A stretch of 34,574 bases of DNA from Bacilli bacterium (GTDB lineage Bacteria > Bacillota_I > Bacilli_A > RF39 > UBA660), in contig JAGHHZ010000035.1 of NCBI GenBank assembly GCA_017887425.1, forward strand, positions 1 through 34,574. Reading direction: 5' to 3'. Positions 6,063 to 33,877 of this stretch are shown piece after piece (within the stretch, counting starts at the first letter, position 1; the number at the start of each line of letters is the position of its first letter). Under the pieces are notes generated by a model. It was not told the origin of the DNA, did no database searches, and worked only from the letters and a program-made list of their open reading frames with translations. A program made the position numbers and the translations under genes.

Positions 6063-7724
6063 TCATTGCAACTCATATGGTTGCTCAGCAGTACCTTCAC
6101 CTCCTGTGAAGGTTAAAGCTGACGAACCTGACTTCAGGTAGATAACTGCGCGAGCACCGTTACTGAACGACGGACTATTGCCGTTGAGGTTGCCATTGAG
6201 GTTGACGTTATACACGATAGACGAACTATAACGATTCATTAGCCAATAATAACTTGACACAGTTGGATTTTCAATTGTGGCTACATTCACAAATGTTTTG
6301 GTACTTGATGTTCCTAAATCGATGTCATTTCCACTAAACATCTCACCAACAGTTGGTAATCCTACATTAGCTGACAACGTTTCATCTTGAACATCTTTAT
6401 AATTTGCACCACTTGGATAATCACCAATATAGAATGTCTTATTTCCGGTATAACGATATTCACTTGATATATTATTAGCAAATGTATTTAACGGTGTATA
6501 TATCGTATGACTAGTTGTGATTGTTACTGTATCGCCATATGCACTTGTTGTTGGAAGTAATCCATTTAATACTACTTTGATACTATCACTATCTTTACTT
6601 ACTACCCTAAATGTACATTTATTATCATCACCACAGGCATTATCACTTCCACTATATGGCACATTGATATATTCGCCCACTTGAATATCACTTGTATTTG
6701 TTGCTTTGTTCCCTGCTTCATAATTTGACTCTAGAGTACCATTACCTCCGGTAATGGTTATATTAGAAATCTTTATAACTGCGCGAGCACCGTTATTGCT
6801 CGACGGACTAATGTTGCTCATGTAGCCAATGTTGCTGACGAAACGAACGTAAGACGAGCTATAACGATTTCCTAACCACCAAAAATCTTCTATATCTAAA
6901 TATGAATCTTGACCACCTGCTCTAGTGTATTGGTTTTCATCTAATAACCCTACTTTTTGACTTGTTGTTATCTCATCAACATCAGTATAGATTCCGACAT
7001 TAAAGGTGTTACTAATAATACTATTTTGTACACTACTATCTAAACTATTATAAAAATAATCATTTAACCATGTATTGATATAACTTGCTTCATATTCTTC
7101 TTTAGTATCCCATACAGCACTAGCCAGTTGAATACTAGTTAATGGCTGCTGTGAAATAAGCAATAAGGTATCAGCATCTGTATCAAACTCTACTACTCGC
7201 CAATGATGTCCTCCATACCATAAATAATTATTACTTACTTCTTCATTTGTTCCAGTATAGTAATATATATTACTATTTGTTTCATCTTGCACTAATCCAG
7301 TAGTATTATCAGGACTATATTGTTCTAATAAGATTTCAATTAGGCCAGTCTTAATTATTTTTTCCACACATTCATTATTTAAATTATAACTAAATCTATC
7401 TTGTTCATATTTAACTTCAACCATATTAGTTAAAGGTACTTCATCGCCACTAACTGCATCATAAACAACATCAGGTAAATAATCACCTTGCGTTAAAGTA
7501 TCTAAAGTAACACAAAAAGTATTACCATTAGTTTTAGGGAAACTATTAGAATTATCGCTAACATACAAACTAGTAGCATTATAAATTATTTCTTCGCTAG
7601 CTTCACTAATTTCTGATTCTTTTTCTCTAATCGCATTTAAAATAGGTGGTAAAGCAATTAAAGCAATAAGTCCCAATACAATTATCACACCGATTAATTC
7701 AACCAAAGTAAAACCTTTTTTCAT
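6063..7724 (-). CDS. Prepilin-like surface protein with two variable repeats (candidate DGR target)
   Basis: Starting at the ATG at 7724 (AAGGGG ribosome site; the upstream GTG at 7733 is too close) gives 553 residues. MKKGFTLVELIGVIIVLGLIALIALPP is a textbook type III signal: prepilin peptidase cuts G|F, leaving a hydrophobic alpha-1 helix. The remainder holds two related modules, about residues 135-335 and 335-553. Each has a body of the DUF6273 kind (YLWYGGHHWRVVEF / CTFRVVSKDSDSIKVVL), then W..NRYSSS, then an ending NGARAVI and a TGG.GT.E..YE tail. NGARAVI sits where formylglycine-enzyme/C-type-lectin-like folds have G(V/F)RPV. In each module the 32 codons from NRYSSS to NGARAVI (residues about 286-317 and 497-528) form a 95-bp repeat with DGR-like variability. 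The stop of asnS overlaps this gene's ribosome site, so the two are probably co-transcribed. No pilus assembly genes are nearby. Pilin anchor: clear; DGR target: inferred. Confidence 0.85.
   Translation of the reverse strand: MKKGFTLVELIGVIIVLGLIALIALPPILNAIREKESEISEASEEIIYNATSLYVSDNSNSFPKTNGNTFCVTLDTLTQGDYLPDVVYDAVSGDEVPLTNMVEVKYEQDRFSYNLNNECVEKIIKTGLIEILLEQYSPDNTTGLVQDETNSNIYYYTGTNEEVSNNYLWYGGHHWRVVEFDTDADTLLLISQQPLTSIQLASAVWDTKEEYEASYINTWLNDYFYNSLDSSVQNSIISNTFNVGIYTDVDEITTSQKVGLLDENQYTRAGGQDSYLDIEDFWWLGNRYSSSYVRFVSNIGYMSNISPSSNNGARAVIKISNITITGGNGTLESNYEAGNKATNTSDIQVGEYINVPYSGSDNACGDDNKCTFRVVSKDSDSIKVVLNGLLPTTSAYGDTVTITTSHTIYTPLNTFANNISSEYRYTGNKTFYIGDYPSGANYKDVQDETLSANVGLPTVGEMFSGNDIDLGTSSTKTFVNVATIENPTVSSYYWLMNRYSSSIVYNVNLNGNLNGNSPSFSNGARAVIYLKSGSSALTFTGGEGTAEQPYELQ
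6093..6113. repeat. Inverted repeat downstream of variable repeat A
   Basis: ACCTTCAC (6093-6100) and GTGAAGGT (6106-6113) form an 8-bp stem with a 5-nt loop, in the codons of the C-terminal TGGEGT motif. Confidence 0.5.
6126..6139. repeat. Small hairpin immediately after variable repeat A
   Basis: ACCTGA (6126-6131) pairs with TCAGGT (6134-6139), readable as a 5-bp stem with a 4-nt loop. It starts 2 nt beyond the coding-3' end of repeat A. In the Bordetella phage DGR, a hairpin a few nt past the variable repeat promotes retrohoming. The match here is by position and shape only. Confidence 0.45.
6142..6236 (-). repeat. Variable repeat A (VR-A), candidate DGR target
   Basis: This 95-bp segment aligns without gaps to 6775-6869, with 22 differences. 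The coding-3' end is an identical 21-bp GC-rich block (6142-6162), resembling an initiation-of-mutagenic-homology element. Variable codons encode I,Y,N,N,L,N,N,L,N,G,N,F,S, against Y,R,F,S,N,I,Y,M,S,N,I,S,N in the other copy. Third codon bases are almost all unchanged. It lies 25 codons from the C-terminus, the usual place for a DGR variable repeat. Confidence 0.7.
6738..6758. repeat. Hairpin downstream of variable repeat B
   Basis: ACCATTACC (6738-6746) and GGTAATGGT (6750-6758) form a perfect 9-bp stem with a 3-nt loop, 16 nt past the coding-3' end of repeat B. It overlaps the codons of the TGGNGT motif, as the hairpin after repeat A does for TGGEGT. Confidence 0.5.
6775..6869 (-). repeat. 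Variable repeat B (VR-B), candidate DGR target
   Basis: This is the second copy of the 95-bp repeat, 633 bp (211 codons) upstream in the coding direction and in the same frame. Homology starts at AATCGTTATAG and stops abruptly after GCAGTTAT. Beyond these edges the two copies show no nucleotide similarity, as expected if both were overwritten from one template and not for a plain old duplication. Confidence 0.7.
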
Positions 7725-7736
7725 AAAGTTCACCCC

Positions 7737-16309: not shown

Positions 16310-17263
16310 ATGAAAAATGAAATAGTATTATTTGAAAATCAAAACATCAAATTAGAAGTAAATATGAAAGACGAAACAGTTTGGCTTAATACTGAACAAA
16401 TGGCCGAATTATTCGACAGAGACTATAAAACTATTAGAAAGCACATTAATAACGCTTTAAAAGAAGAATTAGATAACTCAACTGTCGCAAAATTTGCGAC
16501 AGTTCAAAAAGAAGGCATAAGAGAAGTTACCCGTAATATCGAGTATTATAACTTAGATGTTATCATAAGTGTCGGTTATCGAGTCAAATCACAAAATGGT
16601 ATTATATTTAGAAAATGGGCTAACAAAATTATAAAAGATTATTTGTTAAAAGGTTATGCTATTAATGAAAAAAGATTAGAATATCTTGAAAAAACAATCA
16701 AATTAATCGATATTGCTGGAAGAATCGATACTGAATTAAGTAGTCAAGATGCTAAAGAAATAATTAAAGTTATTAACAATTATTCAAATGCTTTAAATCT
16801 TCTTGATGACTATGACCATAAAAGAATACTTAAACCTAAAGGAACTAAAAACAATAAAAAAATCACTTATGAAAATTGTATAGATATAATTATTAAACTA
16901 AAATTTAACAGCGATAGTGATTTATTTGCTCTTGAAAGAAATGAAGGACTAAAAGGTATTATAGGTAATATTTATCAGTCTTTTGATGGCAACGACTTAT
17001 ATCCAACAGTTCAAGAAAAAGCAGCCAATTTTCTATATTTAGTTACCAAAAATCATACGTTTATCGACGGTAATAAAAGAATAGCAGCGACATTATTTAT
17101 ATATTTTTTAGAATTTTATAATATTTTATACACAGAAAACGGACAAGTTATCGATAACAATACACTTGTTGCAGTTACAATTCTTATTGCTCAATCTAAT
17201 CCTAAAGAAAAAGATATTCTAATTGATTTAGTAATGAACTTCTTAAACCACGAAACAGCCTAA
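16310..17263 (+). CDS. RhuM-family protein fused to a Fic/Doc domain
   Basis: The 317 residues contain two parts. Residues about 1-115 match the virulence RhuM family (VWLNTEQMAELFDRDYKTIRKHINN ... NIEYYNLDVIISVGYRVKSQNGIIFRKWANKIIKDYLLKGY), a KilA-N/Bro-like putative DNA-binding module. Residues about 165-317 are a Fic/Doc domain with the active-site loop HTFIDGNKR (249-257). Fic proteins transfer AMP and Doc transfers phosphate to target proteins, with the His as general base. The match to HxFx(D/E)GNKR is complete, so catalysis is plausible. The fusion is known from other bacteria, often in accessory regions. No separate antitoxin and no clear (S/T)xxxE(G/N) inhibitory helix is seen. The very strong AAGGAGG site and solitary setting fit a horizontally acquired cassette. 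Confidence 0.88.
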   Translation: MKNEIVLFENQNIKLEVNMKDETVWLNTEQMAELFDRDYKTIRKHINNALKEELDNSTVAKFATVQKEGIREVTRNIEYYNLDVIISVGYRVKSQNGIIFRKWANKIIKDYLLKGYAINEKRLEYLEKTIKLIDIAGRIDTELSSQDAKEIIKVINNYSNALNLLDDYDHKRILKPKGTKNNKKITYENCIDIIIKLKFNSDSDLFALERNEGLKGIIGNIYQSFDGNDLYPTVQEKAANFLYLVTKNHTFIDGNKRIAATLFIYFLEFYNILYTENGQVIDNNTLVAVTILIAQSNPKEKDILIDLVMNFLNHETA

Positions 17264-18516: not shown

Positions 18517-19551
18517 ATGAACGAAACAATAATGTTAAGTGAAATCAAAGCACAACCAGAATTAATCAAAAGATGCATGGAAACAAACCGTGAACTTATT
18601 AAAGAAATTGGTCAAGCAATTAAAGAATTTAAACCAACTAATGTTTTAATTGCTGCAAGAGGTACTTCTCTACATAGTGGTATGTTAGCAAAATATTTAT
18701 TTCAACTATACTATCACTTACCAGTTAGTATTGCTACACCTTCTGTTTTTACAGTTTATGACGGAGAAGTTGATTTAAGTAAAACCTTAGTTATTGCTAT
18801 TAGTCAATCAGGAAAAGGAAAAGATATTTGGAAAGTTGTCGAAAAAGCTAATAAATGCAATGCATTAACCGTTGGTATTACTAATACTAAAGGTTCAATC
18901 ATCGCTAATGAATGCAAATATAATTTATGGAACGATGTCGATGAAGCTAAATCATATGCTGCTACTAAAACATACACTTCATCATTATATTTATTAATAG
19001 CTTTAATTCATGAATTAACTGGACATGAAGATTTGAATTTAGAAAATGATAAAGTAATTGCCGCTTTAAACGAAGGATTTAATCACTATGAAGAAATAAA
19101 AGCTTTAGCGCCGGTTTTAAAAGATGCTGAAAATACTTTAGTTATGGCAAGAGGTAAAGATTTATCACTAGCTATGGAATTAGCTTTAAAAATTAAAGAA
19201 ACTTCTCATTATCCAGTTCATGCTTATCCATGTAGTGAATTCTATCACGGACCTATTGTTATGGTAAGTGAAAAAACACCGACTATTCTATTTGGTGTTG
19301 ATAAAGTAACTAATGATAATATTTTGAAAACGATTAAAGATTTAAAAACTTTAAATGCAAAAACAATTGCTTTCACTAACAATCAAGAAATAGCCAATGA
19401 AGCTGATAATGCTATTTACTATAATGTTGAAGATAAATATGCTATCTTTACTTCAGCAATTGTTCTACAGTTGTTCACTAATGAATTATCAGTTTTAAGA
19501 GGTAATAATCCTGATTTCCATAAAGTTTTAGAACATATTGATACAATTTAA
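18517..19551 (+). CDS. Double-SIS sugar-phosphate enzyme (NagB-II/AgaS/FrlB-like)
   Basis: The 344 residues contain two SIS (sugar isomerase) domains. The first has NVLIAARGTSLHSGMLAKYLF, LVIAISQSGKGKDIWKVVEKA and a later AATKTYTSSLYLLIALIHEL; the second begins around LVMARGKDLSLAMELALKIKETSHYPVHAYPCSEFYHGP. This is the layout of the isomerase half of GlmS without the glutaminase domain, as in type II glucosamine-6-phosphate deaminases, AgaS and fructoselysine/glucoselysine-6-phosphate deglycases. AARGTS followed by ATPS in the first domain fits the NagB-II-like group best. The mannose-family PTS operon lies two genes away on the other strand, so a role in the first cytosolic step after uptake of an amino sugar or glycated amino acid is inferred. 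AGGAGG precedes the ATG. Confidence 0.85.
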   Translation: MNETIMLSEIKAQPELIKRCMETNRELIKEIGQAIKEFKPTNVLIAARGTSLHSGMLAKYLFQLYYHLPVSIATPSVFTVYDGEVDLSKTLVIAISQSGKGKDIWKVVEKANKCNALTVGITNTKGSIIANECKYNLWNDVDEAKSYAATKTYTSSLYLLIALIHELTGHEDLNLENDKVIAALNEGFNHYEEIKALAPVLKDAENTLVMARGKDLSLAMELALKIKETSHYPVHAYPCSEFYHGPIVMVSEKTPTILFGVDKVTNDNILKTIKDLKTLNAKTIAFTNNQEIANEADNAIYYNVEDKYAIFTSAIVLQLFTNELSVLRGNNPDFHKVLEHIDTI

Positions 19552-20058: not shown

Positions 20059-20084
20059 AAAAGTTGACAATTAAGTCAACTTTT
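20059..20084. terminator. Terminator of the PTS operon
   Basis: AAAAGTTGAC (20059-20068) pairs perfectly with GTCAACTTTT (20075-20084) around a 6-nt loop that includes the HAD gene stop. It has T-rich flanks on both strands. Confidence 0.75.
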
Positions 20085-20694
20085 TTAAATCTTTTAAACT
20101 TTCAAAATAATAATCATGTTCTACTTCTTCAACTGCTCCCCAACCAGCAAGACCGAATTTAATACCAAAACTTTTAGCACATTTACTATCATTACTGCTA
20201 TCACCAATAAAAATTGATTCATCCTTTCCCCAATTAGATAATTTAAATAAGACCTCTAAACTTTCTTTATCAGGTTTAGGATTTACAACATCACTAGCAG
20301 TAATAATATAATCAAAATAAGGTAGTAATTCATCTAATTTTGGTTCGTTATAAACTTCGTCTTTATTTCTTGAGGTTACAATAGCTAAAGAAGCTTGATT
20401 ATCTTTTAAATATTTAATAACCTCTAAAGCACCATCAAACATTTCAATATCTTTAGAAAACTCATTATAATAAATGCTTTCTTTTTTTAAGATTTCTTGA
20501 CCTAAAGGAGTATTTAAGTCAACTCCTAATAATTCTAATGATTTTTCAGAAGTTGAAGCAAAACCCAAATCAAACATTTTCTTATCAAAAGGAAGATTAT
20601 ATTCTTTTAAAACTTTTTCTTTAGCTTTATAAGCAACTGAATAAGTATTTAATAAAGTTCCATCAATATCAAAAATATAGTTTTTAAATGCCAT
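20071..20694 (-). CDS. HAD-superfamily hydrolase, last gene of the PTS operon
   Basis: The 207 residues are a subfamily I HAD phosphatase. Motif I is FDIDGTLLNT (nucleophile Asp9, acid Asp11), motif II lies in LAIVTSRNKD, and motif III/IV in NPKPDKESLEVLF ... FIGDSSNDSKCAKSFGIKFGLAGWG. The helical cap between motifs I and II (about 15-85) puts it with phosphoglycolate phosphatase/beta-phosphoglucomutase-like enzymes. It overlaps the IIA gene by 11 bp at the distal end of the PTS operon. This suggests it acts on a sugar phosphate from the imported substrate, perhaps as a detoxifying phosphatase; substrate specificity is not readable. Confidence 0.88.
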   Translation of the reverse strand: MAFKNYIFDIDGTLLNTYSVAYKAKEKVLKEYNLPFDKKMFDLGFASTSEKSLELLGVDLNTPLGQEILKKESIYYNEFSKDIEMFDGALEVIKYLKDNQASLAIVTSRNKDEVYNEPKLDELLPYFDYIITASDVVNPKPDKESLEVLFKLSNWGKDESIFIGDSSNDSKCAKSFGIKFGLAGWGAVEEVEHDYYFESLKDLKKLT

Positions 20695-21088
20695 CGGTAA
20701 CTTCCTTTTCTACAACTTTCAAATCTTTAATATTAACAACACTTTTTAAACTTGTTTGTTTTAAATTATCTGCCAACTCATTTAAAGATAATTTATCTAT
20801 TTTTAAAGCAGTATCAAGTAGACCACCTAAATTAGTTCCAATTAAGATTTCTTTATTTAAATCAAGACGTGAAACTACTTTATAAGGCGTACCACCCATT
20901 AAATCACAAGCAAACAAGTAATTGTTATTTTTATCTAAATCTTTGAATTTTAAACTAAATTGTTCTTCACTCTCTTCTTTCAAAAAGTCAAAAACTAAAA
21001 CATTATCTTTAGGTCCAATTATTAATTCTAATGCACTTTTTACGCCACTAGCATAATGGCCATGGCCTGTTATTACTAAATAATTCAT
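20684..21088 (-). CDS. PTS mannose/amino-sugar family enzyme IIA
   Basis: The 134-residue single-domain IIA accepts phosphate from HPr on a histidine and passes it to IIB. The start MNYLVITGHGHYASGVKSALELIIG matches mannose-family IIA, with His9 (GHGxxA) as the phosphorylated residue. CDLMGGTPYKVV is the conserved FTDLxGGTP-type loop near residue 62, with Cys instead of Thr. The usual IIA-IIB fusion is absent: IIB is a separate gene upstream. It follows directly on IID, whose stop overlaps this start, and overlaps the HAD gene. Confidence 0.92.
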   Translation of the reverse strand: MNYLVITGHGHYASGVKSALELIIGPKDNVLVFDFLKEESEEQFSLKFKDLDKNNNYLFACDLMGGTPYKVVSRLDLNKEILIGTNLGGLLDTALKIDKLSLNELADNLKQTSLKSVVNIKDLKVVEKEVTDGI

Positions 21089-21900
21089 TATAAGATTCCA
21101 AAGAATGCTAATAAAACAGAAACAACTAAAGTAGATAGAATTAATACAGTTGGATTAACTTTCTTCTTAAGTAAGAAGTAAATTAAGAATGTGAAGGCAA
21201 ATGGTAATAAATTAGGAATAATCTTATCAACTAAATCAGTTTGTAAACTAATAAATGTACCATCGCTAATTTCAATTTGTGGCAATAAAGTAATTGACAC
21301 ATAACTAGCAATTAAACCACCTAGAATAGTAACACCTAAAATAGATGCTGCATTCCCCACTTTTTCAGTATTAGCTTGAATTTTATCCAAAGCACTAACA
21401 CCAGCACTATATCCCATATGAGCAAGTGGAAATCTTAATAAGAATACAGCTAAGAATACTAAGAAATATAAAATAGGTCCTAAAATATTTCCCTCACTAG
21501 CTAATGAAGCACAAATACCAGACATAATTGGCATAACTGTAAACCAGAAAATTGCGTCACCAATACCAGCTAAAGGACCAAACATTGAAATTTTAATTTT
21601 TTTAACAGTTTCGGGATCTTCATCGCCTTCATATAAAGAAACCATTAATCCTTCCAAAAATGGAACTAAAACATTATGTGTATTGATAAATTCTAGATTG
21701 TCTTCAGTAACTTCCGCTAATTTCTTCTTATCGTCTTTATAAATTTTTTTAAGACAAGGGGTTAAAGTAGCAGTAAAACCAATGTTTTGCATTCTTTCAT
21801 AGTTAAAAATTGCTTGGTTAAGTAAAGAACGATATCCTAAAGCAGTAATATCTTTTTTACTAACCTTTTTATATTTTTTTTCTTTATTAGATGCCTTCAT
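21088..21900 (-). CDS. PTS mannose/amino-sugar family enzyme IID
   Basis: From the ATG at 21900 (GGGAGGTGA site) it has 270 residues; an upstream in-frame start at 21930 is inside the IIC gene and unlikely. IID, with IIC, forms the membrane channel. The N-terminal cytoplasmic part (SKKDITALGYRSLLNQAIFNYERMQNIGFTATLTPCLKKIY) and the signature KISMFGPLAGIGDAIFWFTVMPIM are typical, followed by membrane segments at the C-terminus (LLPFAFTFLIYFLLKKK ... VLILSTLVVSVLLAFFGIL). It overlaps IIC by 14 bp, indicating coupled translation. Confidence 0.95.
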   Translation of the reverse strand: MKASNKEKKYKKVSKKDITALGYRSLLNQAIFNYERMQNIGFTATLTPCLKKIYKDDKKKLAEVTEDNLEFINTHNVLVPFLEGLMVSLYEGDEDPETVKKIKISMFGPLAGIGDAIFWFTVMPIMSGICASLASEGNILGPILYFLVFLAVFLLRFPLAHMGYSAGVSALDKIQANTEKVGNAASILGVTILGGLIASYVSITLLPQIEISDGTFISLQTDLVDKIIPNLLPFAFTFLIYFLLKKKVNPTVLILSTLVVSVLLAFFGIL

Positions 21901-22651
21901 TAGTTTCACCTCCCTTAGTACTATTAACACGATAATATTCTAAAAGTGCAAATGCTAATCCCATAATCGCAACTGGTAAAATATTGTCGATTGGAATAAA
22001 TGTAGCAAATAAGAATCCAGCTAATAAATAAGGAACATATTTTGCTTTTAAAATAACTCTTAATAACATTGCAAATCCAATTGCAGGTAATAAACCACCA
22101 GCTACAGAGAATCCATGAGTTAACCATTCAGGCATCATGTTAACTAATTCTACTAAAGCATCTTGTGCAACATAAACAGATAAGAATGTTAAAACACCAT
22201 ATATAACTACAGTTAAAGTCATACCAAAGATACATAATTTCATGATACCATTTAAATTACATTCTTTAGCATAACGGTCAGCAGTTTTATTAAAGAATGA
22301 AAGAACTGTTGACTTAATATTTCCTATAAATTGAGCTAATAAACCAAATGGTACTGCTAAAGCAAAAGCAGCAGCAACTGGTTGGCCAGTTGTCTTAGCT
22401 AAAACAACTGTCATAATACTTGTCATAACTGCATCAGGTGGCACAACCCCACCAACTGCTGTAATTCCAGCAAAAGCAAGTTCAACAATACCAGCAGCAA
22501 GTAATCCAGTTTCTAAATCACCGACTGCCAAACCAATCAATGGGCAGACAATAATAGGACGGAAGATAAAAAATCCTTCCAAAGAACTATCTAAAGCTAC
22601 GACCATTGCAATTAGAGTAATAATAATACCCATAAGTAAAGTAACTTCCAT
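21887..22651 (-). CDS. PTS mannose/amino-sugar family enzyme IIC
   Basis: The 254 residues form a polytopic membrane protein of the EII-Sor/AgaW type. Characteristic stretches are LDSSLEGFFIFRPIIVCPLIGLAVGDLETGLLAAGIVELAFAGI, then GGVVPPDAVMTSIMTVVLAKTTGQPVAAAFALAVPFGLLAQ. The GAVVPPD-type loop resembles N-acetylgalactosamine and related amino-sugar permeases more than classic ManY. AGGAGG overlaps the IIB stop, and IID overlaps the 3' end. The exact sugar is not determined. Confidence 0.95.
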   Translation of the reverse strand: MEVTLLMGIIITLIAMVVALDSSLEGFFIFRPIIVCPLIGLAVGDLETGLLAAGIVELAFAGITAVGGVVPPDAVMTSIMTVVLAKTTGQPVAAAFALAVPFGLLAQFIGNIKSTVLSFFNKTADRYAKECNLNGIMKLCIFGMTLTVVIYGVLTFLSVYVAQDALVELVNMMPEWLTHGFSVAGGLLPAIGFAMLLRVILKAKYVPYLLAGFLFATFIPIDNILPVAIMGLAFALLEYYRVNSTKGGETNEGI

Positions 22652-22660
22652 AAACTCCTC

Positions 22661-23131
22661 CTAAAATTCTTCTTTTTTAAAATCAGGGGTATCCTGAATA
22701 TAAATTTCATCAACCTTACTTTTAATGAAATTTAAATCTTCTAAATCCTTGTCGTCGACGTAAACTTTATCAGAAATTTTCTTTTTACCTTCTGAAAAAT
22801 GTAAATTTCCGATATTTACGTTTTTAATCTCCACACCTCCTTCGATTAATTTTCTTAAAACTTGAGGCGTTTTACACACTAATAATATCTTTTGACTATC
22901 ACTAGCTTTATCGATAACATCGATAGTATGTTGAACAGTAAAAAATCTTGAATCAAATCCTAATGAAGAGGCAGCCAATTGCATAATACTTTTTTCGGTA
23001 TTACTATTAGCAGTTTCATCATCGACAACAACGATCAAGTTAGCTCCTACTGTTCCCGCCCAGTTACAAACAACTTGTCCATGAATCAATCTATTATCGA
23101 TTCTTGTTAATAAAATATTATTTTTTGCCAT
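22661..23131 (-). CDS. PTS mannose/amino-sugar family enzyme IIB
   Basis: This 156-residue cytosolic IIB carries the phosphorylated histidine in TRIDNRLIHGQV (His17). The C-terminal half has VEIKNVNIGNLHFSEGKKKISDKVYVDDKDL and ends with IYIQDTPDFKKEEF. NIGNLHFSEGKK is the form seen in AgaV-like (N-acetylgalactosamine/galactosamine) IIB proteins, supporting an amino-sugar substrate; this is a family-level inference. AGGAGG lies before its ATG and the gene follows ptsI by 9 bp. Confidence 0.94.
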   Translation of the reverse strand: MAKNNILLTRIDNRLIHGQVVCNWAGTVGANLIVVVDDETANSNTEKSIMQLAASSLGFDSRFFTVQHTIDVIDKASDSQKILLVCKTPQVLRKLIEGGVEIKNVNIGNLHFSEGKKKISDKVYVDDKDLEDLNFIKSKVDEIYIQDTPDFKKEEF

Positions 23132-23140
23132 AAATACCTC

Positions 23141-24853
23141 CTAATAAAATTTTCCATATTTTTCTTCGGCAAATTTACTTAATCTTTCTTCAATTTCTTT
23201 AACAGTTTTGAAATCTAATAATGATTTAACGAAATCTTCAGTTTCTTTTTTATTAAGCATTGAAATATATTTTTTTACTCTTTTAACAGTATTAATATTG
23301 ACGCTAAACTCATCTAATCCTAATCCTACTAATAGGACTATTCCTAATGGATCGGCTGCCATTTCACCACACATACCGACAAATTTGTTATCATATTTTT
23401 TAGTAGCATCAATTGAATTTTTTATTAATCTAATTACTCCCGGATTAAACCACTGATATAGCTTACTTATTTTTGTATTTCCTCGATCAACAGCAGTTGA
23501 ATATTGAACTAAATCATTAGTTCCAATACTAAAGAAATCAACTTCTTCAATTATCATATCAGCCATTGCAGCTACTGCTGGTATTTCCACCATAACACCA
23601 ACTTTGATATTTTCATTAAAATTAATATTATCATTTTTCAATTCTTGTTTAGCTTCTTCCAAAATTAAATTAGCTTTACGAATTTCCTCAATTGAAGAAA
23701 TCATTGGATACATAATTGCAATATTGCCAAAAGCACTAGCTCTTAAAATTGCTTTTAAAGAAGTTTTAAAAAAATCTTTATGATCCAAACAATATCTAAT
23801 TGCCCGATACCCTAAAAATGGATTAGCTTCATCACCAATTTCAATGTAAGGACATTTTTTATCTCCACCAATATCTAGTGTTCTAATAATCATTTGTTTA
23901 CCATTTAATTTAGTAGCAAAACTTTTATAAACTTCGAATAAATAATCTTCAGTTGGAGGAGTTGTTTTATTTAAATATAAAAATTCTGTTCTAAAAAGAC
24001 CAATTCCATCCAAAGGAATTTCACTAATTCTTTCTAATTCAGTTAAATCTCCTGTATTAGCACTTACTTCAAATAAATATCCATCAGTCGTTCTGGCTTC
24101 TTTAACATCATCTAATTCTTTTGCAAGCTCTATTTCACTAGCTATTTTTTCTTTAATCTCAGTTATTTTTTCTTCTTCTAAATTTGTTTCAACAAAACCT
24201 TTATTTCCATCGATAAAAATAAGTTCACCATTTTTTAGATTCTTAACATCAATTCCAAATACTGAAGGAATTCCTAAAGATGTAGTTAATATACCAATAT
24301 GACTTGTTTTTCCTCCTAATTCTGATACGATTCCTTTAATATATTGTAAGTTATCAGTTAGTAAGACATTGGCAGTCATTTCATGAGAAACTAAAATTAC
24401 ATCTTCCTTTAAATTATCCGGATTAAATTCAACAACATTATAATATTTTGATAATACTTTATGTCTTATATCTTTAACATCTTTTGCTCTTTCTTTTAAA
24501 TAATTGTTATCTAATGCTTCTAATTGTTTAATTTTATTATTAAAATAAATATCGATTGCAAGGTCACCATAACATTTTTTATCATTAATAGTATTTTCTA
24601 TTTCTTTTTTTATACTTGGTGATATTAAAACATTTTTATTAAATTCTGTTAATGATTTTAAATCTTCATCATCTAATGAAGCAATAATATCTTCATAGTC
24701 TTTAACAGATTCATCTATTGCACTGTTTACTTTAGTTATTTCTTCGTTTAAATCAGCAGCTGTTCCTTGATTGATATTTGGTAATTTAGTATCGACAAAT
24801 AAACATTTACCTAAGCCTAAACCATTGCCAACTTTAATTCCTAATAATTTCAT
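23141..24853 (-). CDS. ptsI: Phosphoenolpyruvate-protein phosphotransferase (enzyme I)
   Basis: The 570 residues are a complete enzyme I: it takes phosphate from PEP onto His185 (ELGGKTSHIGIL) and donates it to HPr. The N-terminal HPr-binding helices (about 30-140) are followed by the phosphohistidine domain and the PEP-binding TIM barrel. In the barrel, GIGLFRTEFLYL, RTLDIGGDKKCPY, PFLGYRAIRYCL and the conserved DFFSIGTNDLVQYSTAVDRGN ... MCGEMAADP are all visible. It overlaps the HPr stop (TAAAATG), so the pair is coupled. Location inside a sugar-specific operon, not as a stand-alone ptsHI, is notable: either the only copy in a small genome or a dedicated one. Confidence 0.97.
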   Translation of the reverse strand: MKLLGIKVGNGLGLGKCLFVDTKLPNINQGTAADLNEEITKVNSAIDESVKDYEDIIASLDDEDLKSLTEFNKNVLISPSIKKEIENTINDKKCYGDLAIDIYFNNKIKQLEALDNNYLKERAKDVKDIRHKVLSKYYNVVEFNPDNLKEDVILVSHEMTANVLLTDNLQYIKGIVSELGGKTSHIGILTTSLGIPSVFGIDVKNLKNGELIFIDGNKGFVETNLEEEKITEIKEKIASEIELAKELDDVKEARTTDGYLFEVSANTGDLTELERISEIPLDGIGLFRTEFLYLNKTTPPTEDYLFEVYKSFATKLNGKQMIIRTLDIGGDKKCPYIEIGDEANPFLGYRAIRYCLDHKDFFKTSLKAILRASAFGNIAIMYPMISSIEEIRKANLILEEAKQELKNDNINFNENIKVGVMVEIPAVAAMADMIIEEVDFFSIGTNDLVQYSTAVDRGNTKISKLYQWFNPGVIRLIKNSIDATKKYDNKFVGMCGEMAADPLGIVLLVGLGLDEFSVNINTVKRVKKYISMLNKKETEDFVKSLLDFKTVKEIEERLSKFAEEKYGKFY

Positions 24854-24854
24854 T

Positions 24855-25106
24855 TTAACTTCCTATATATTCTTCCAATGCTTTAACTGCTTCCTCTTCA
24901 TCGACACCATTTGCTTCAATTATTATTTCATCATTAAAGTTAATATTTGCTGATAAAATTTCTAACACCTCTTTAGCATTAATTACTTTATCATCTTTTT
25001 TCAAATTTATATCCGATTGAAATTTCATTGCCAAATCGACAACTTCACTTCCTGGTCTTGCGTGAAGACCAGTTTCTTTTTTTACAATAACTTTCTTCGC
25101 TATCAT
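24855..25106 (-). CDS. ptsH: HPr phosphocarrier lacking the regulatory Ser46
   Basis: The 83-residue HPr relays phosphate from enzyme I to IIA. His15 with its surroundings (ETGLHARPGSEVVDLA) is intact. Residue 46, the serine phosphorylated by HPr kinase for CcpA-mediated catabolite repression in Firmicutes, is Glu here (INAKEVLEIL against the usual VNLKSIMGVM). The product should therefore work in transport but not be switched by HPrK; Glu might mimic the phosphorylated form. It is first in the operon ptsH-ptsI-IIB-IIC-IID-IIA-HAD and has a GGGAGGG ribosome site. Confidence 0.95.
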   Translation of the reverse strand: MIAKKVIVKKETGLHARPGSEVVDLAMKFQSDINLKKDDKVINAKEVLEILSANINFNDEIIIEANGVDEEEAVKALEEYIGS

Positions 25107-26469: not shown

Positions 26470-27402
26470 ATGAAAATTAGATTAGGATATGTTTCTATTT
26501 CTAAAACATTAGATTTAACTTGTTCAAAAACAATTACATATACAAACTTTCAAAAAAGCAATAATTTTAATAAAATCGATGAAATTATTGTGGAAAACTT
26601 AGAAAATTTAGAAAAAATTATTGATTATAATATTAAAAACAATATCCATTTTTATCGTTTAACTTCAAAGTTAATTCCCCTTGCTACTAAAACAGATGTA
26701 GTATTCGATTATACATTGAAATATAAAAAACAATATCAAAAAATAAGTGAGAAAATAAATAATAGTAAAATGCGTGTTGATGTTCATCCTGACCAATTTT
26801 GTGTTTTGAATAGTACCAAAAAAGAAGTTTTAGAAAATACCTTTCAAATTTTAGAATACCATTATAAAATTTTAGAAGCTTTAAATATTAAAAATAAAAT
26901 CATCATTCTTCACATTGGAAGCAATGTTTTTGGTAAAGAAAACAGTATCAAAAGATTTATCAACAATTTCTATAAATTACCTGACTACATTCAAAAATGT
27001 ATTGCTGTGGAAAATGACGATAAAATATATAATATTGTGGATTGTTTAAACTTATGTAAAAAATTAAACATTCCATTCGTTTTAGATTATCATCATCATT
27101 TGTGTAACAACGACGGTATTGAAATTGATAAATATCTAAACGCGATTTTTTCGACTTGGAAAACTACACCCAAAATTCATTTCTCATCGCCAAAAAATAA
27201 AACAAAGAAAGATTTTCGCTCACATCACGACTATATTAATATTAAAGATTTTATTAGTTTCCTAAATAAAATTAAAAATTTAAATATTGATTTAGATATT
27301 ATGCTAGAAGCTAAAGCAAAAGATGAAGCTTTATTTAAATTAACAAGATTATTAAAATATTATAACTATCAATTTATTGATGAAACAACATTCATAATTT
27401 GA
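26470..27402 (+). CDS. uvsE: UV-damage endonuclease UvsE
   Basis: The 310 residues match the UvdE/UvsE family, TIM-barrel enzymes that nick DNA 5' of UV photoproducts without a glycosylase and start alternative excision repair. It begins MKIRLGYVSIS. Metal-binding positions are visible in MRVDVHPDQFCVLN, IIILHIGSNVFGKENSIKRF, CIAVENDDK and IPFVLDYHHHLCN, plus KIHFSSP and LDIMLEAKAKDEAL near the end. In Bacillus subtilis the orthologue (YwjD) is a spore UV-repair enzyme; with the gerA genes nearby, a spore role here is plausible. AGTGGTGA gives a very short leader. The stop overlaps the promoter of the next gene. Confidence 0.93.
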   Translation: MKIRLGYVSISKTLDLTCSKTITYTNFQKSNNFNKIDEIIVENLENLEKIIDYNIKNNIHFYRLTSKLIPLATKTDVVFDYTLKYKKQYQKISEKINNSKMRVDVHPDQFCVLNSTKKEVLENTFQILEYHYKILEALNIKNKIIILHIGSNVFGKENSIKRFINNFYKLPDYIQKCIAVENDDKIYNIVDCLNLCKKLNIPFVLDYHHHLCNNDGIEIDKYLNAIFSTWKTTPKIHFSSPKNKTKKDFRSHHDYINIKDFISFLNKIKNLNIDLDIMLEAKAKDEALFKLTRLLKYYNYQFIDETTFII

Positions 27403-32419: not shown

Positions 32420-33877
32420 ATGGATCAAGAATTAGATAAGATAATTAATCATATTAAAACAATGAATGGCAATAGTACAGACATTAATGTTCGATATTTT
32501 AATATTCACAATCAAAAAGTAGCTTTTATATTTTTAGAAAGTGTCGCTAATGATGATAAAATTAGTAATTTTTTAGGTAAAAGTTTAAGTATTAGCGTTA
32601 GAAGTAAAAAAAATTTATTTGAAAATTTATTCGATAGTATTAATAATACTATTCCAAATAGTAAAGTTAAGATAATAGATAACTATGACGATATTTTTTA
32701 TCATTTAGCAAGCGGTTTTACTTGTGTTTTTGTCGACGGTTATAATAAAGCAATCACTTTAGAAACTAAAGCTTTATTAGATAGAAGTGTTACTGAAGCT
32801 ACTAGTGAACCTGTTTTAAAAGGTCCTAAAGATTGTTTTATTGAAAATATTTTAGCCAATATGGGATTAATTAGGAAAAGAATTAAAGATCCCAATCTTT
32901 ATTTTGAAGAAACAAAAGTTGGAAAAAGGACAAAAACAAAAGTTGTAATTGGTTATATTAAAGATATTGCTGATGAAGAAAAAGTAAATTTATTAAAGAA
33001 AAAGCTAGAAAAAATTAATATTGATGGAATCATCGATTCAAATTATATAAAAGAATTATTAACCGATAATCAAAAATCTTTTTTACCAAGAGTAATATCT
33101 ACAGAAAGACCTGATTTAACTGCCATGGGATTATTAGACGGTAAAATAGCTATCATCGTAGAAAATACTCCTTATGTTTTATTATTGCCTACTGTATTTG
33201 CTGATTTTTTCAAATCGCCTGAAGACTATTATACAAAACCATTTAATGCCTCTTTTACAAGAATTTTAAGATATATTGCATTCTTTATTGCTATTTTAGT
33301 ACCAGCTTTTTATATTGCCGTAACAACATTTAATATGGAAATTGTTCCTAGTTCTTTATTAATATCATTTTCCATTCAAAGGGAAAGTGTTCCCTTTCCC
33401 ACCATAATAGAAGTTCTAATACTAGTAATTTCTTATGAGATATTAAGAGAAGCCGATACAAGAAAACCACAAATCATGGGCGCATCCATCAGCATTGTCG
33501 GCGCTTTAATTTTAGGTGAAGCCGCTGTTTCTGCCGGCGTTATATCACCAATTGTTGTTATTGTTATTTCTATTTCAGCCGTTTCAGGAATGGGTTTCAA
33601 TGATCCTGATATTACAAATGCAATTAGAACATGGAGAATATTATTTATGTTGGCAGCATGTTTATTCGGTATTGTTGGTATAGTTATTTTATTCATTATC
33701 TTTATAACTAAATTAAACAGTATTGAAGTATTAGGTACACCTTATTTAGCGCCTTTATCTCCTTTTAGTTTAAAAGATTTTAAAAATTCTTTGACCAGAT
33801 TCCCTCAGCAAAAAATCAAGACAAGACCAACTTATTTTAATAAAAAAAATATTAATAGAATAGGAAGTGACAAATGA
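32420..33877 (+). CDS. gerAA: Spore germination receptor subunit A (GerAA/SpoVAF family)
   Basis: The 485 residues match the GerA family, membrane subunits of nutrient germinant receptors of endospores. The N-terminal hydrophilic domain (about 1-280) includes DVRY-like start, GFTCVFVDGYNKAITLETKALLDRSVTEATSEPVLKGPKDCFIENI, GYIKDIADEEKV and the NTPYVLLLPTVFADFFKSPEDYY stretch leading into the membrane part. From about 285 come several spans with FSIQRESVPFPTIIEVLILVISYEILREADTRKP and MGASISIVGALILGEAAVSAGVISPIVVIVISISAVSG, the typical GerA signature. It is followed by the C subunit gene with an ATGA overlap. The usual B subunit (amino-acid-permease type) is not between them. Order A-C-B is known elsewhere; SpoVAF cannot be excluded but would not normally precede a GerAC. 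Confidence 0.93.
   Translation: MDQELDKIINHIKTMNGNSTDINVRYFNIHNQKVAFIFLESVANDDKISNFLGKSLSISVRSKKNLFENLFDSINNTIPNSKVKIIDNYDDIFYHLASGFTCVFVDGYNKAITLETKALLDRSVTEATSEPVLKGPKDCFIENILANMGLIRKRIKDPNLYFEETKVGKRTKTKVVIGYIKDIADEEKVNLLKKKLEKINIDGIIDSNYIKELLTDNQKSFLPRVISTERPDLTAMGLLDGKIAIIVENTPYVLLLPTVFADFFKSPEDYYTKPFNASFTRILRYIAFFIAILVPAFYIAVTTFNMEIVPSSLLISFSIQRESVPFPTIIEVLILVISYEILREADTRKPQIMGASISIVGALILGEAAVSAGVISPIVVIVISISAVSGMGFNDPDITNAIRTWRILFMLAACLFGIVGIVILFIIFITKLNSIEVLGTPYLAPLSPFSLKDFKNSLTRFPQQKIKTRPTYFNKKNINRIGSDK

Follow-up and report, generated by a model that had tools for sequence, protein, structure and literature searches.

A sugar phosphotransferase operon with glutamate at HPr position 46 and an enzyme I altered at the contact with it

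The closest described systems to the one reported here are those of the Bacillus type, in which HPr carries Ser46 and is connected through HPr kinase (HPrK) to CcpA. An acid in place of Ser46 is the standard imitation of the serine-phosphorylated form, P-Ser-HPr. According to an excerpt of PMC12445079, enzyme I (EI) uses P-Ser46 HPr poorly as a substrate, and earlier work cited in an excerpt of PMC5320558 placed the phosphoacceptor activity of S46D HPr about 2000-fold lower. For the contact itself, an excerpt of PMC3724859 gives a docking model in which EI Glu84 hydrogen-bonds HPr Ser46 and makes a salt bridge to Lys45, and for the E. coli complex it gives the contacts Glu84–Lys49 and Asp82–Lys27. 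No description of a natural HPr with an acid at position 46 was found in the literature, the search covering open-licence papers. The HPr described below has such an acid and is encoded next to an EI that differs at the residues making this contact.

The HPr gene and its residue 46

The ptsH gene occupies positions 24855–25106, minus strand, of the window (the whole 34,574-nucleotide stretch that was analysed) and encodes an HPr of 83 amino acids from an ATG start with GGAGGG upstream. The protein scores 74.9 bits against the NCBIfam HPr model TIGR01003 (cut-off 47.9), also matches PF00381, and aligns without gaps to B. subtilis HPr. Its structure model (pLDDT 91) has the HPr fold, with a TM of ~0.95 to HPr structures. 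His15 (codon at 25064–25062, minus strand) stands in an unbroken HARP motif; by the two family models, the fold and this histidine, the product is a predicted phosphocarrier of the HPr family. Residue 46, encoded by GAG at 24971–24969, is Glu, and in the alignment it stands opposite the Ser46 of B. subtilis HPr. The initial annotation had read this minus-strand gene as having an intact His15, a Glu at 46 and no serine for HPr kinase, and the codon, TIGR01003 and the alignment bear it out.

It had also named two ways in which that reading could fail, namely another serine at the regulatory site or an error at codon 46, and neither holds. Misalignment is ruled out by the gapless alignment, and the residues flanking Glu46 are Lys45, Val47 and Leu48, leaving no neighboring Ser to occupy the site. 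Sequencing error is ruled out by the recurrence of the acid in other assemblies, through GAA, GAG or GAT. Glu46 is encoded by GAA or GAG in eight named loci of other assemblies (L002–L009) and is found in 10 of 10 HPr-bearing genomes of the genus, counting this one, although the two sets overlap and are not independent, at least five of the eight loci being contigs that also belong to the genus genomes.

Among 126 distinct HPr-family sequences, which were pooled from every locus fetched and are skewed to high-scoring matches rather than being a random sample, residues 15 and 46 are His/Ser in 95, His/Glu in 13, His/Asp in one and His/Arg in one; the remaining 16 have Ser46 with a residue other than His, or no coverage, at 15. 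All 14 sequences with an acid at 46 come from the window's family, where they make up 14 of 14 distinct HPrs bearing His15 (13 Glu, 1 Asp). The other 112 comprise 111 with Ser46 and the one with Arg46, a count that includes three weak partial matches from the family (G764, G768 and G816) left out of the 14 of 14. The single Asp, encoded by GAT, belongs to the distant member G805, whose HPr has the lowest identity to the window HPr of the acid-46 set (37%). Glu49, whose codon in the window is at 24962–24960, is retained in all 14.

Enzyme I at the contact with residue 46

EI is encoded by ptsI at 23141–24853, minus strand. It has 570 amino acids and the motif GGKTSH with active-site His185. With E. 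coli numbering counted on the alignment, its Ser78 (24622–24620) aligns with Asp82, Ser80 (24616–24614) with Glu84, and Lys107 (24535–24533) with Gln111. The equivalents of Asp82 and Glu84 are both Ser in all 14 distinct EIs that partner acid-46 HPrs. In 40 other EIs, position 82 is invariably Asp, and position 84 is Glu (20), Ala (14), Asp (3), Val (2) or Gln (1) and never Ser. Lys at 111 divides the two groups in the same way (14 of 14 against 0 of 40). The Ala at 84 in 14 of the 40 indicates that Glu84 is dispensable alongside Ser46.

The mean charge of the EI interface is +0.6 in 12 acid-46 EIs and −2.6 in the 40 others, and off the interface in the same region the acid-46 EIs are also less acidic (−3.75 versus −7.6). 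Altogether 32 of 570 EI columns separate these 12 from the 40. Five of them fall among the 28 interface columns mapped from a published contact list, an enrichment with p of 0.016, or 0.029 within the first 250 residues, both calculated post hoc. The acid-46 EIs (13 of the 36 rows in the tree) group in a single, fully supported clade on a long stem; on this tree, the swap arose once. Since they are one clade on a long stem, the paired change counts as a single event, and coevolution is not statistically testable.

The Glu84–Ser46 contact of the published model, taken with the activity loss of S46D, suggests that the HPr–EI contact has been turned round in the acid-46 pairs. We infer coadaptation of HPr and EI as the best reading of the aligned sequences, short of proof. 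Phosphate would pass from PEP to EI His185, then to HPr His15, EIIA, EIIB and the sugar. In an ordinary pair, Ser46 would touch EI Glu84, an acidic residue that an acid at 46 would oppose, hindering phosphorylation. In the acid-46 pairs, the polarity would be reversed, with Glu or Asp at HPr 46 opposite Ser at EI 84, Ser likewise in place of Asp82, and Lys newly at 111, and this reversal would allow the acid to be tolerated or used in pairing. On this mechanism, a natural, fixed phosphomimetic-like HPr would owe its function to a reciprocal change in EI (Ser46–Glu84 to Glu/Asp46–Ser84), giving an orthogonal pair with seryl control of the phosphotransferase system (PTS) lost, and we give it an even chance of being right. 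In genome G480, the EI that partners the Arg46 HPr has Asp opposite it at both positions (the equivalents of 82 and 84), which also fits a rewired contact. The fixed acid with its changed EI offers a natural means of testing which contact is behind inhibition of the S46D type, and the window pair is a candidate orthogonal phosphorelay.

HPr kinase, CcpA and the distribution of the pair

The genome containing the window (G000; 36 contigs totalling 1.24 Mb, completeness 87.6%) has a single HPr (one PF00381 match), and the same is true of each HPr-bearing family genome seen, which speaks against an acid-46 HPr standing beside one with Ser46. A second match to the EI query in G000 we take to be a PPDK-like enzyme. 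Of 146 genomes of the order, 3 have HPr; in the genus it is 10 of 18, and in the family 11 of 386, where eight matches are solid and three are weak, partial and without His15. The three weak matches, G764, G768 and G816 (E of 3.5e-7, 1.4e-8 and 1.3e-5), pass the Pfam cut-off and have a Ser46-like motif, and in one of them the frame runs across three TAG stops; all three were left out of the eight.

Two HPr-kinase models gave no match in G000, itself 87.6% complete. Above the cut-off, HPrK was found in 0 of 146 order genomes and in 0 of 15 HPr-bearing family genomes (G000 and 14 others), with 3 of 3 control genomes positive. Weak HPrK-like matches in 26 of the 146 order genomes are all partial and below the cut-off, many lying in open reading frames of ~550 amino acids; one of the 15 family genomes, G119, likewise has a partial 19-bit match in a 550-amino-acid frame. 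Across the class, 217 of 395 genomes pass the cut-off of the HPrK model, and it is on these and the three controls that sensitivity rests, B. subtilis in the control panel being matched by neither model. Three genomes, G163, G175 and G233, have HPrK above the cut-off and no HPr match. The CcpA model, searched in the genus, matched 0 of 18 genomes, as against 9 of 14 in the panel, and no other LacI-type protein matched in the same 18. In the window, cre-like sites are at chance level, with 15 found and 14.85 expected. The initial annotation had pointed to a Ser46 ptsH, hprK and ccpA as the genes to look for. None of the three was found in the 87.6% complete genome, and its alternative of a dedicated second HPr was not found, there being one ptsH. 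In a cell with no HPrK, seryl phosphorylation is not available to damp the relay; uptake would instead be governed by PEP supply and gene expression. The sugar-uptake relay probably runs without HPrK/CcpA control in this small-genome lineage of Bacilli.

With HPrK and CcpA lost, Ser46 might simply have drifted, Glu arriving by chance and without a role, and the EI differences being ordinary divergence along a long branch. Such relaxed constraint agrees with the failure to find either protein, with the single origin and long EI stem, and with the many further EI columns that also differ. However, the site has drifted no further, since only Glu or Asp occurs in 14 of 14 distinct sequences and the codon changes are synonymous. 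Genomes outside the family argue against it as well. Reading by eye identified 11 class genomes with HPr but without an HPrK match, and the 10 of these with a full HPr all keep Ser46 (the eleventh, G186, has only a fragment). A strict rule that Ser46 tracks HPrK therefore fails, and kinase loss alone neither frees the site nor explains the acid. It also points to something besides the kinase, such as the EI contact, as what keeps Ser46 in place, and we regard drift as an unlikely explanation.

A second possibility, close to the suggestion in the initial annotation that Glu46 mimics the phosphorylated state, is that this HPr acts as a permanent P-Ser-HPr on some target, for example a metabolic enzyme. 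S46D and S46E are standard mimics, the S46D crystal structures 1sph and 1opd share the same fold, and S46E HPr alters GapA kinetics in vitro, according to an excerpt of PMC12445079. Yet the 18 genus genomes gave no match to CcpA or another LacI-type protein, the cre-like sites of the window do not exceed chance, and EI differs at the residue touching 46, a change unneeded for a purely signalling role. Since no known reader of P-Ser-HPr was found, regulatory mimicry is the less likely role; the suggestion is not supported, and we consider it very improbable. Most likely, Glu46 is fixed as a residue of the interface.

HPrs altered at the other site were also seen. Ten Crh-like HPrs (L073, L074, L075, L081, L083 and L086–L090) have T, N or D in place of His15, keep Ser46 and occur with HPrK; their genomes (G225, G253, G312, G282, G500, G190, G437, G307, G242 and G419) have one HPr match each. 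The six of these genomes included in the EI search gave weak EI matches only, so these may be signalling-only HPrs, a mirror image of the window case. The HPr of L079 (G494) has Gly15 and keeps Ser46, with no HPrK match and only a weak EI match, so that the enzyme seems to be missing for both known sites. Acid-46 and mirror-image HPrs together suggest that HPr can lose either of its two sites without the other.

The operon and its relation to known systems

Beyond ptsI, the minus strand encodes EIIB at 22661–23131 (NF007288, 226.2 bits, cut-off 180; RLIHGQV, His17), EIIC at 21887–22651 (NF007289, 288.8 bits, slightly below the cut-off of 300), EIID at 21088–21930 (NF007359, 374.2 bits, below the cut-off of 400), EIIA at 20684–21088 (PF03610, 41.4 bits; TGH motif, His9) and a HAD-type phosphatase at 20071–20694. 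The listed GTG start of EIID overlaps EIIC, and an inner ATG at ~21900 is likelier. All four EII proteins match the mannose family; the galactosamine-type cut-off is passed by EIIB only, and EIIA falls further below it than EIIC and EIID. The phosphorylation motifs are unbroken in EI, HPr, EIIA and EIIB. A SIS-domain enzyme (GlmS/NagB-II-like, PF01380) is encoded on the plus strand at 18517–19551. It also lies beside the operon in G119, G636 and G708, from whose operons the HAD-type phosphatase, found in the genus loci, is absent. Gene order and model matches agree with the initial annotation of a sugar-specific operon having its own EI, and the sugar imported is likely an amino sugar, as judged from these matches.

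The order HPr–EI–EIIB–EIIC–EIID–EIIA recurs in other genera and is identical in G636 and G708. The G069 operon fits it as well, its EIIB being read partially by the ORF filter, and the contig of G805 ends within EIIC. In G119, a 689-amino-acid protein without a Pfam match is encoded between EI and EIIB (L131 4976–7042). Just past EIIA in G069, an opposite-strand frame cut by the contig end (L132 14300–14848) is a putative transposase. Elsewhere, the window encodes a GerA-type spore germination protein (32420–33877; PF03323, 522.8 bits), in a genome of 1.2 Mb, a UvdE-type endonuclease (26470–27402), a 556-amino-acid protein with a prepilin-type N-terminal methylation motif and DUF6273 (6063–7733), and a RhuM-family protein fused with a Fic domain (16310–17263). 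Scans of the window for tRNA and Rfam families gave no matches.

Upstream of the operon, a P-type ATPase is encoded in the window's genus as well as in G708, and so vertical inheritance with many losses is possible. A different history would have the acid arise in an HPrK-bearing ancestor or donor, where it shielded one operon from seryl control, the operon then being inherited or acquired whole. G480 lends this some plausibility, being a genome with HPrK in which an operon-bound Arg46 HPr and its own EI (L142 7697–7993 and 6052–7680) lie beside NagA/NagB and PTS genes, with three further HPrs in the genome; the window operon, for its part, is self-contained, and its occurrence in the family is patchy, with 8 solid matches in 386 genomes. 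No HPrK-bearing genome in the pool of 126 sequences has an acid-46 HPr, however, and other operon-bound HPrs (L146, L149, L152–L154) keep Ser46. Nor is there a near donor in 392 phylum genomes or the plasmid collection, the best EI outside the family being ~40% identical. Plasmid records with an HPr match number 170, and the 10 fetched all have Ser46. We think it rather improbable that the acid arose as such a shield. The explanation that we favor, and hold to be somewhat probable, is a self-contained amino-sugar PTS whose private HPr–EI pair has adapted to the lack of HPrK/CcpA control.

The window HPr shares with the Bacillus type its fold, His15, the HARP motif and an adjacent EI. It differs in having Glu46 and Glu49, in an EI whose equivalents of Asp82 and Glu84 are Ser, and in that neither HPrK nor CcpA was found. 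Laboratory S46D and S46E mutants have the same kind of residue at 46, but in the window the acid is natural, fixed and paired with a changed EI, whereas the S46D mutant is a poor EI substrate (PMC5320558, in excerpt). The HPr of G480 is likewise operon-bound, with its own EI and without Ser46, but there residue 46 is basic, facing two Asp residues, and HPrK is in the genome. For Haloarcula, an excerpt of PMC2405797 describes self-contained PTS clusters that encode an HPr and EI of their own. Haladaptatus (L153) and Haliovirga (L152) also encode HPr and EI with sugar- or donor-specific PTS genes, but unlike the window HPr, theirs keep Ser46. As to the nitrogen PTS, the window EI matches TIGR01417, the model of ordinary EI, from residue 3 of its 570, with no room for an N-terminal GAF domain. 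Finally, Crh is a relative of HPr that has also lost one of the two sites; it keeps Ser46 without His15, and the window HPr is the reverse.
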